From contig DRME01000048.1 of NCBI GenBank assembly GCA_011375175.1, forward strand, positions 1-46,939: DNA of 46,939 nt. The letters are read 5' to 3'. Below the pieces are notes generated by a model, which was given only the letters and a program-made list of their open reading frames with translations, had not been told where the DNA came from and searched no databases. Made by a program: the position numbers and the translations under genes. Shown piece by piece: positions 11,243-13,850 of this stretch (the first letter of the stretch is position 1; each line of letters opens with the position of its first letter). Source of the stretch: Deltaproteobacteria bacterium (GTDB lineage: Bacteria; Desulfobacterota; GWC2-55-46; DRME01).

Positions 11243-11466
11243 GGATAGGGATGAATCAAGGGAAGGAAACATGAGTGAATGAATCGGGAGAGAGGAGGCG
11301 GCCGCCCTTGACTATCAATTCCAATGACATGTGCTTACCCTCTTCCAGGCTCTGGGCTGGTGCGTGCCTAAACAGCCCGACAGAGCGAGTGTTCCCGTAG
11401 ATACTTAGCGGAGAAGACATAAGGCTGTCGGTGAGAGAGTAGCTGACTGCTTCGAAGGTTTTTGCT
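11243..11466. other. Gene-poor leader of the atypical block
   Basis: No convincing reading frame is present. Base composition shifts here from GC-rich to mixed. A long-range hairpin is visible: GCTCTGGGCTG (11349-11359) pairs with CAGCC and CAGAGC (11373-11377, 11381-11386) with a 3-base bulge. A weak promoter-like TTGACT lies near 11309. It could encode a structured RNA, but I cannot match it to a known family. Confidence 0.35.
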
Positions 11467-11495
11467 TTGACATGCCAGAGTCGACGGTATATATT
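11467..11495 (+). promoter_or_regulatory. Consensus sigma70 promoter of the RHH-HD-YwgA module
   Basis: TTGACA (11467-11472) and TATATT (11490-11495) are separated by exactly 17 bases. Transcription would start near 11502, about 25 bases before the ATG of the RHH reading frame. Confidence 0.8.
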
Positions 11496-11525
11496 AACCC
11501 AGGTTTCTGTGTGGGAGCGGATGGA

Positions 11526-11742
11526 ATGAGAAAGACCAAGCCGAAAGAGCGCAAAATATACGCGGTGCTACCTTATGACGTGCACCAAAAGCTACGAATG
11601 AAACGTGCCACTCAATGATGTCACTACCCAAGAATACGTGGCAAGATTGATCAAATTGATCAAGGCGGGTGTCGAAGACCTTGCATTGCCGGAAAAAACC
11701 TCGGCCAACAAAGTTGAAATAGAGCAGGCTAAGCATGAGTGA
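11526..11742 (+). pseudogene. Frameshifted ribbon-helix-helix (antitoxin-like) gene
   Basis: Two overlapping short frames together spell an RHH DNA-binding protein of about 70 residues. The first runs from ATG 11526 to the stop at 11616-11618 and contains KIYAVLPYDVHQKLRMKRA, a typical RHH strand and first helix. The second is shifted by one base from about 11605 and continues as LNDVTTQEYVARLIKLI, a typical second helix, ending at 11740-11742. GGAG at 11514-11517 precedes the ATG. The second frame ends 8 bases inside the HD gene, as expected for a translationally coupled operon. This is either a decayed gene, a sequencing error, or a programmed frameshift. In RHH regulators the N-terminal strand contacts DNA. 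Confidence 0.65.
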
Positions 11743-13102
11743 TACAGGAAATCAAGCAACCAGCTTTTGGCCTAAAGTTATCCGCGACCCCATTCATAAC
11801 GTGATAACTTTTGAAAATACAGAAACCGATCAATTGTTGTTTCGTCTTGTTAACTGTCGTGAATTTCAGCGCCTTCGCAGAATTAAACAATTGGGTCTGA
11901 GCGAACTGGTCTTCCCAGGGGCAAATCACAGTCGCTTTGCTCATTCGATTGGAGTGATGCACACAGCCAGACTATTCTTGAATCAAATTGGCAATGCCGG
12001 GTTTACTCTCACTAACGATCAGAAGACCGTTGTCTTAGTATCCGCACTTCTTCATGACATTGGACATGGACCATTCTCCCATGCGTTCGAGAAAATCACG
12101 AGAGACAAGCATGAGCGAAGAACCGAGGAAATCATCGAAGACGATTCCACAGAAATCAACAAAGTATTGAAAGAATTCGATGGCGATTTACCGACACGTG
12201 TTGCTGCGTTTTTTCAAGAGGATCCGACAGGCGAGAACGTCGGAGACATCCCTCCGTTTTTTGTTCACGTTGTAAGTAGCCAGTTCGATGCCGACCGGTG
12301 CGACTATCTTCTTCGTGATAGTCATGCTACTGGTGCAGATTATGGTAAACTCGATCTTAGATGGTTAGTTGACCATTTATATGTTGATGAGACTCATAAT
12401 CGCATATACTTGGGAAGAAAAGCATTCTATGCCACAGAGCAATATATCTTTGCGCGGTACCACATGTACCAAGCAGTATACTTTCACAAAGCGACACGTT
12501 CAGCCGAGGTTATGCTTCGGCTTCTCTTTAGGCGTTACAAAGAGTTGCTTGACGCAGAGGATACACTGGACAAAAAATCCAAGATCGTCGAGGGAGCATC
12601 CCCAGCATTGATTAAGGCTTTTTCTGGAGGGTTGTCTTTATACGATTATTTGTTACTGGATGACCACACCATTACGGAGTTTCTTAAATGTTGCGAGGTC
12701 TGTAGGGATCCTATCATTAAGCGCCTATCAAGCGGTCTCCTTCACCGTCATCTCTATAAGTGCGTTGATGCCACTGGTATTAGCCGCGATAACCCGGATA
12801 AGGTTGCTGAATTCCGCGAGCAAGCTAAAGAGATAGTCCAAAAATACATTGATGCGGTGGACTATGGTCTTGCTTCAGATACTCCTGCGGATACTCCTTA
12901 TAAAGTTTATGATCCGAGTGATGACAATCCTGCAACACAGATTTTTGTTGAAGATGCGCTCGGACAAATAAAATTGATTAACCATTTGTCAGATCAAGTC
13001 AATGCACTGCGAAAAAAGATAACCCAGCTTCGTTATTATTTTCCTGAAAAAGCGAGGACAGAAATACTTGAGCTAACGAAGTCCTGGAAAGGAGGTCACT
13101 AA
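11735..13102 (+). CDS. HD-domain phosphohydrolase, COG1078 (YwfO/dNTPase-like)
   Basis: A 455-residue HD superfamily protein. The N-terminal region has the COG1078 pattern KVIRDPIHN (14-22) and REFQRLRRIKQLG. The metal site H...HD...D is intact: H70 in RFAHSIG, H107-D108 in LLHDIGHGPFSH, and D187 in FDADRCDYLLRDS. Studied relatives (Enterococcus EF1143, and distantly SAMHD1) hydrolyse dNTPs. The C-terminus ends in a charged helical tail. Codon use and base composition are visibly AT-richer than the surrounding chromosome, indicating transfer. The ATG overlaps the end of the RHH frame, and the next gene starts 2 bases after its stop. The function is probably nucleotide hydrolysis in a stress or defence context; this is inference. 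Confidence 0.87.
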   Translation: MSDTGNQATSFWPKVIRDPIHNVITFENTETDQLLFRLVNCREFQRLRRIKQLGLSELVFPGANHSRFAHSIGVMHTARLFLNQIGNAGFTLTNDQKTVVLVSALLHDIGHGPFSHAFEKITRDKHERRTEEIIEDDSTEINKVLKEFDGDLPTRVAAFFQEDPTGENVGDIPPFFVHVVSSQFDADRCDYLLRDSHATGADYGKLDLRWLVDHLYVDETHNRIYLGRKAFYATEQYIFARYHMYQAVYFHKATRSAEVMLRLLFRRYKELLDAEDTLDKKSKIVEGASPALIKAFSGGLSLYDYLLLDDHTITEFLKCCEVCRDPIIKRLSSGLLHRHLYKCVDATGISRDNPDKVAEFREQAKEIVQKYIDAVDYGLASDTPADTPYKVYDPSDDNPATQIFVEDALGQIKLINHLSDQVNALRKKITQLRYYFPEKARTEILELTKSWKGGH

Positions 13103-13104
13103 AC

Positions 13105-13611
13105 ATGAACCCTGAACGGTTTAGGCTGCTGGCAGCCGTCATCGCTGCACATCCCGGGAGGCAGGTCATTGGTAGAACTCGTCTTCAAAAGACGATTAAG
13201 CTTTTGCAGAGGATAGGGCTCCCGACTGACTATGACTATATGCTGCATTTTTATGGCCCATATAGTGACGGCCTTCAGGCAGAAATAGGATTGCTTGAAC
13301 ATCTGGGGCTTGTGGAAGAGAAATCGTGTCTTTCGGCGGACGATAGACCTTACTATGTTATCAAGTCAAAGCCAGAGGCTGCTTTGAAAGAAGTAGAAGA
13401 GAAATTTGGAGACGCAATTAAGCTGATGGCCCAAGCTGACCCTGTAGTTTTAGAACTGGCCGCAACGTATGATGCTTTCCGTGAAGCTGGGATGACACAC
13501 GAACAGGCATTAGCGAACATCCGCCGAAAGAAAGGCGCCAAATGCGAAAATAAGAACGAAGAAAAGGCTCTCGAATTGCTTGAAAAACTGTTACCGAAAA
13601 AAGCGGCTTAA
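13105..13611 (+). CDS. YwgA-like protein, partner of the HD hydrolase
   Basis: A 168-residue soluble protein. The first 90 residues look like a winged helix: RTRLQKTIKLLQRIGLPTDYDYMLHFYGPYS (in two pieces around residues 24-54), then LEHLGLVEEK and a polar hairpin ending YYVIKS. The rest is helical and charged. The pattern FYGPYS after a Q-K-x-x-KLL helix is shared with B. subtilis YwgA and with SocA/antitoxin-like winged-helix proteins. From memory ywgA and ywfO (the HD homologue) are neighbours in B. subtilis, so the pair is conserved across phyla. GGAGG precedes the ATG at 13105. The stop lies in an 11-base sequence that recurs 240 bases downstream. Confidence 0.7.
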   Translation: MNPERFRLLAAVIAAHPGRQVIGRTRLQKTIKLLQRIGLPTDYDYMLHFYGPYSDGLQAEIGLLEHLGLVEEKSCLSADDRPYYVIKSKPEAALKEVEEKFGDAIKLMAQADPVVLELAATYDAFREAGMTHEQALANIRRKKGAKCENKNEEKALELLEKLLPKKAA

Positions 13612-13850
13612 GGCCCAAACCAGCCGAGGGGCTAACTGTCCGGTAGGTGCTTGACTTTTACACCCCTAACGGGGTATCCGCTTAGGCTGCATTCTCGGCC
13701 TCCCTCACCTCCCTTCTTGTTCTTCGGCAGCCCATCGACGAAGGCCTTGTGCGGCGTTATGCCGTTCATGTTCCCACCCTGTTGGGGAACACTCGTTGTT
13801 ATGAAATCCGTCAGCAGTTCCTGAAAGAGCGTCCAAAACAAAGCGGCTTA
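13600..13850. repeat. 11-bp direct repeats bracketing the transposase remnant
   Basis: AAAGCGGCTTA occurs at 13600-13610, overlapping the YwgA-like stop codon, and again at 13840-13850. The two copies are exactly 240 bases apart and enclose the transposase remnant. They may mark a deletion or an insertion junction. Confidence 0.5.

Follow-up and report, generated by a model that had tools for sequence, protein, structure and literature searches.

The window analyzed here, a stretch of 46,939 nucleotides, contains a gene for an HD-domain hydrolase followed by a gene for a small YwgA-like protein. The original prediction was that these genes, preceded by an RHH regulator, form a transferred module that may serve defence or nucleotide control. 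The question raised by this locus is which of these genes belong together, and whether they are a controlled defence effector, a regulated enzyme balancing nucleotide pools, or the remnant of a past transfer.

Gene organization and origin of the locus

The following features were found in the region of interest:

11467..11495, + strand: sigma-70-type promoter-like site TTGACA-17-TATATT (consensus match only)
11526..11738, + strand: remnant of an RHH-like regulator gene with a frameshift near 11611, outside the conserved unit
11735..13102, + strand: HD-domain protein gene, intact ORF of 455 aa; EF1143/SAMHD1-type dNTPase and probable effector
13105..13611, + strand: partner gene, intact ORF of 168 aa; stand-alone DarG C-terminal-type (YwgA-like) domain and probable direct inhibitor of the HD protein

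The HD and partner frames are indeed coupled: only 2 bases separate the HD stop codon from the partner start, and a good ribosome-binding site (AAGGAGGT) lies in the 3' end of the HD gene, just before this start. The third coupled frame of the original prediction is a broken gene. The RHH-like frame starting at 11526 (MRKTKPKERKIYAVLPYDVHQKLRMKRAT...) has only 30 codons before a stop, and the sequence that would naturally continue it (NDVTTQEYVARLIKLIKAGV...) is found in a different frame, ending at 11739; thus, either the gene is frameshifted or there is an assembly error. In the nearest relative of the locus (L066), the RHH stretch upstream of the pair is degraded, and nothing similar occurs upstream of the pairs in L067-L070. 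We therefore rejected the RHH regulator as a working third component and do not consider it part of the unit. An IS remnant supposed to adjoin the module also remained unproven: both candidate stretches, 13632-13841 (- strand) and 11243-11525, are single-copy in the genome, and the former had no Pfam match.

The predicted promoter is located upstream of the HD/partner pair and matches the consensus at 11 of 12 positions. It is suggestive only, because the region has 4 promoter-like sites of any quality versus 3.1 expected, a number not above chance. An Rfam search of the interval for RNA elements yielded no matches. The distinct base composition was confirmed. The G+C content of the pair is 45% versus 65% in the rest of the window, and this 20-point gap is among the largest observed; however, the pair was G+C-poorer than its flanks in all 33 HD-partner loci, Bacillaceae included. 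Thus, the low G+C content is partly intrinsic and, taken alone, is weak evidence of transfer.

The proposal that the module was transferred is supported by its relatives. The window pair is most closely related to one from a MAG of Candidatus Zixiibacteriota (L066), with identities of 77% for the HD protein and 72% for the partner. The next-nearest HD relatives are from Planctomycetes (47–56% identity), and significant full-domain HD matches in 97 relatives of the window's genome were at most 43% identical. In the phylogenetic tree, the window HD protein and those of Zixiibacteriota and Planctomycetes formed a group (support 97) that did not include the paired HD proteins from the window's own phylum. 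Copies of the pair were also present in IMG/VR. The window copy is, thus, a stand-alone, horizontally acquired representative whose nearest kin are in another phylum.

The HD protein and its partner

Residues 14–439 of the HD protein align with the EF1143 dNTPase (PDB 2o6i, E=1e-62) and residues 13–284 with SAMHD1. In the alignment of paired relatives, four metal ligands (H70, H107, D108, D187) and the catalytic histidine (H126) are invariant, in agreement with the prediction of a COG1078 enzyme that keeps all its metal ligands. Judged by family (homology over the full catalytic protein) and by its H..HD..D ligands and catalytic His, the protein is a full-length EF1143/SAMHD1-type dNTPase and is predicted to hydrolyze dNTPs. 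It is not a member of the anti-phage dGTPase family NF041026 of NCBIfam, scoring 16.2 bits versus a curated cut-off of 400. EF1143 forms a homotetramer, is activated by dGTP and depletes dNTPs, and was described as a regulator of the dNTP pool (PMC8177086).

It could be argued that the window has kept only a decaying remnant of a transferred pair, devoid of function, while the family is functional elsewhere. This would be consistent with the broken RHH gene, with an in-frame stop in the HD gene of the sister copy L066 and with the lack of adjoining defence genes. However, both window genes are intact and all ligands are kept. In addition, the dN/dS ratio of the HD gene since its split from L066 was ~0.10 (with dS near saturation), which indicates that this gene has been under purifying selection. 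We consider such a remnant improbable.

A Pfam search with the window partner itself gave no significant matches. However, the DarG model of PADLOC matched it in the C-terminal part (E=1.5e-7, profile positions 161–318 only), and the same model matched all 30 proteins of the partner-family alignment. When a profile of partner relatives was compared with PDB, DarG of the M. tuberculosis DarTG complex was found (7yk3_B, E=4e-4). An AlphaFold2 model of the partner (pLDDT 93) also had DarG (7yk3) as its best PDB structure match, with probability 1.00 and TM 0.59, albeit with a Foldseek E of only 0.012. Several PadR-like winged-helix regulators ranked below DarG among the structure matches. For the partner, a stand-alone domain of the DarG C-terminal type is a more accurate description than the predicted generic winged-helix protein. 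The partner signature is G-[RK]-T-x-x-Q-K ... Y-G-P-[YF]-S ... L-E-x-x-A-T. Sequence and predicted fold, taken together, indicate homology of the partner to the C-terminal domain with which DarG binds DarT, the relationship being a distant one (identity of the family to DarG ~20%). An N-terminal macrodomain is absent from the 168-aa protein, so the partner is not itself a DarG. Previous work on EPEC DarG showed that its C-terminal domain has no hydrolase activity, yet alone binds and sequesters DarT and neutralises its toxicity (PMC7003065).

The predicted similarity to YwgA was also correct, as the partner belongs to the same family as the ywfO-ywgA type partners of Bacillaceae. Two other assignments were discarded. 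The Panacea/SocA domain (PF13274) did not match the window partner and matched only one of its 30 relatives, weakly (7.5e-5), and an overall acidic DNA mimic is inconsistent with a net charge near zero (-7 to +4).

Conservation and genomic settings of the pair

The partner gene follows the HD gene in all five nearest HD relatives, and the pairing was detected in 13 of 80 genome loci and 11 of 34 IMG/VR loci. Pairs occur in Zixiibacteriota, Planctomycetes, Bacillaceae, Brevibacillus, a Thermoanaerobacterales MAG, the window's own phylum and IMG/VR contigs. When 395 genomes of this phylum were searched with the partner only, 9 stand-alone partner genes were found, 7 of which directly adjoin an HD gene. 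The exceptions were L044, in which the partner-family gene overlaps a gene for a HigB-2-like toxin (L044:2344-3151), and L049, in which no evident toxin partner is located beside it. The HigB-2-like protein is a third kind of toxin next to this inhibitor-like domain.

The HD protein and its partner co-diverge. Their distances were strongly correlated (Mantel r=0.92, with none of 2000 permutations as high), and the correlation was 0.72 when only HD pairs differing by more than 50% were compared. Mapped onto the HD phylogeny, pairing can be explained by 5 changes of state, versus 12.3 in shuffles. The HD and YwgA-like genes are, thus, a conserved unit, as had been suspected.

As a test that could have refuted the original prediction, the distribution of this unit gave a mixed picture. 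On the one hand, it is conserved and mobile in many phyla; on the other, in Bacillaceae and Brevibacillus it has the ywfO-ywgA arrangement (e.g., Priestia L064, Geobacillus L135), and the Bacillaceae pair is located in an ordinary chromosomal-type neighbourhood that looks like core genome. In Lactobacillales, Listeria and Paenibacillus, no partner was found next to the HD gene, and EF1143-type enzymes of enterococci, streptococci and lactobacilli occur without an adjacent partner, so an unpaired HD enzyme is not always lethal. Searches of viral contigs and plasmids with the partner sequence gave no matches because the partner diverges fast, whereas the HD query did find pairs. As a conserved, coupled two-gene unit with a mobile distribution, the pair resembles type II toxin-antitoxin systems, although in Bacillaceae it appears to belong to the core genome.

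HD genes were also seen in other contexts. In alphaproteobacterial plasmids (L062, L063, L065), a conserved operon consists of genes for a radical SAM protein, a 3'-5' exonuclease, an AAA ATPase and an HD protein, with no YwgA-like partner; it is possibly a separate system. Several Listeria, Enterococcus and Staphylococcus phage records (OR846587, OR848192 and similar) contain what appears to be the housekeeping HD gene of the host, probably due to host DNA in these records.

The link with defence proved wider than originally supposed, as it extends into Hma and BREX operons of relatives. The pair is flanked by the genes for the helicase HmaA and methylase HmaB in five Hma operons (L042, L047, L070, L215, L220), and by those for BrxC-PglY and PglXI in one BREX operon (L045); in these six relatives, helicase, methylase and ATPase genes are present in the same operon. 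The HD protein of L070, a Pirellulales MAG, belongs to the same clade as that of the window, and those of L042, L047, L215 and L220 form part of another clade, which suggests that the pair was recruited into Hma operons at least twice. In the window, the pair stands alone: no defence genes and no helicase, methylase or ATPase genes were found beside it. It is also not part of a resident Hma system, as the window's genome had no HmaB match at E<=1e-40.

Ten further Hma loci (L214-L223) were retrieved by HmaB similarity alone. The HmaA-HmaB slot was readable in nine of them; in L217 it was beyond the contig end. Two slots carry the HD-partner pair (L215, L220) and one carries a complete DarT-DarG pair (L214:4763-6508), whose DarT matches PDB 7omu (E=1e-17). 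Single slots were occupied by a Schlafen/AlbA-like protein (L221:4757-6430), a DUF4062 plus a Schlafen-like protein (L218:9377-10843), a TPR protein (L219:9831-12173) and another protein (L216), and two were empty (L222, L223). These contents suggest that the slot mostly carries effectors, and it looks like a cargo slot. The HD-partner and DarT-DarG pairs occupy the same position, and their second genes are homologous. Downstream of HmaB, the DarT-DarG locus also encodes a 297-aa protein with a partner-like domain (L214:9821-10711), which has the length of PADLOC PDC-M19A.

Possibly, the pair has a housekeeping role: the HD protein would be a normal, regulated dNTPase that keeps nucleotide pools in balance under allosteric tuning by the partner, and the occurrence of the pair in defence operons would be incidental or secondary. 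The stability of ywfO-ywgA-type pairs in Bacillaceae and Brevibacillus, the strong purifying selection and the description of EF1143 as a dGTP-activated pool regulator (PMC8177086) are all compatible with this idea. However, it does not readily account for the patchy distribution outside Bacillaceae and Brevibacillus, the six loci between core genes of Hma/BREX operons, the IMG/VR copies and the replacement of the pair by DarT-DarG in the same slot. We regard this explanation as rather unlikely, if worth keeping in mind.

Alternatively, the partner might sense or activate rather than inhibit; it could, for instance, be of the winged-helix type and turn on the HD protein upon binding to DNA or a phage product. 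PadR-like regulators are among its structure matches, and the existence of partnerless HD proteins implies that constant inhibition is not essential. However, the closest relative of the partner by both sequence and structure is an inhibitory domain, and other members of its family accompany DarT and a HigB-like toxin, which argues for neutralisation. An activating role is quite unlikely.

Possible function and relation to known systems

Since the pair recurs across phyla and viral contigs, often inside anti-phage operons, its probable role is that of a controlled defence module that stops growth. In a more specific form, for which we see close to an even chance, the HD protein would act as effector and be inhibited directly by the partner, the two together forming an auxiliary anti-phage module. 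This reading is based on homology, catalytic residues, coupling, pairing, co-divergence, position in defence operons and slot exchange with DarT-DarG. The partnerless HD enzymes of Lactobacillales, the core-genome-type pairs of Bacillaceae, the lone setting of the window copy and the distant relationship to DarG speak against it. From these observations we infer the following scheme. The HD protein, acting as a dNTP triphosphohydrolase, would drain dNTPs and thereby stop DNA synthesis. The partner, made from the same message, would bind the HD protein directly and keep it inactive, much as DarT is held by the C-terminal domain of DarG. Infection by a phage would lift this block, dNTPs would fall and phage replication would fail. 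In Hma and BREX operons, the pair may back up the restriction-like core as a second-line effector.

Somewhat more tentatively, the YwgA/DarG C-terminal domain might be a general and exchangeable inhibitor of unrelated toxins (the ADP-ribosyltransferase DarT, the HD dNTPase and a HigB-like RNase), with HD-YwgA pairs representing a new, dNTP-depleting toxin-antitoxin type among the cargo of BREX-related defence operons and ywfO-ywgA of B. subtilis a domesticated form. Bacterial SAMHD1-like enzymes have so far been treated mainly as nucleotide housekeepers. If the proposed function is correct, such enzymes would also be regulated defence effectors, among the exchangeable effectors of Hma/BREX operons; ywgA would gain a function, and one inhibitor domain would have been reused on unrelated toxins.

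In the literature searched, the HD-partner pair is not described as a defence module. Nor was a function reported there for the ywfO-ywgA pair, YwgA being mentioned only in passing and YwfO in general genome studies. In the pairs of Priestia (L064) and Geobacillus (L135), too, a related partner gene comes after a gene for an HD dNTPase, but these pairs differ from the window pair in their core-genome setting and in sequence (identity ~25% for the partner and ~35% for the HD protein). EF1143 of Enterococcus faecalis shares family and ligands with the window protein over a whole-protein alignment, whereas enterococci have no adjacent partner gene. Human SAMHD1 belongs to the same family, has the same metal ligands and differs by its SAM domain.

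The Panacea/SocA domain has a K-QK...YGP pattern that we take to be similar to that of the partner; the window partner differs in not matching PF13274. Panacea (DUF4065) is common to antitoxins of many different toxins (PMC8832971) and is, thus, a precedent for one antitoxin domain serving many toxins. Hma, a DUF499-centred, BREX-related system, was defined as a three-gene system in the PADLOC paper (PMC8565338). Unlike the window copy, related pairs are located among the core genes of Hma and BREX operons. Auxiliary nuclease effectors were catalogued in a 2026 survey on BREX and related systems, the main text of which makes no mention of an HD-domain, dNTP, DarG or YwgA component (PMC12839542).

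Another parallel is with DarTG. In both systems, a toxin gene is followed by an inhibitor gene (in the window, candidates for these roles), the partner being homologous to the toxin-binding domain of DarG, and both kinds of pair occur in the HmaA-HmaB slot. The candidate toxin of the window is, however, an HD dNTPase rather than an ADP-ribosyltransferase, and its partner lacks a macrodomain.
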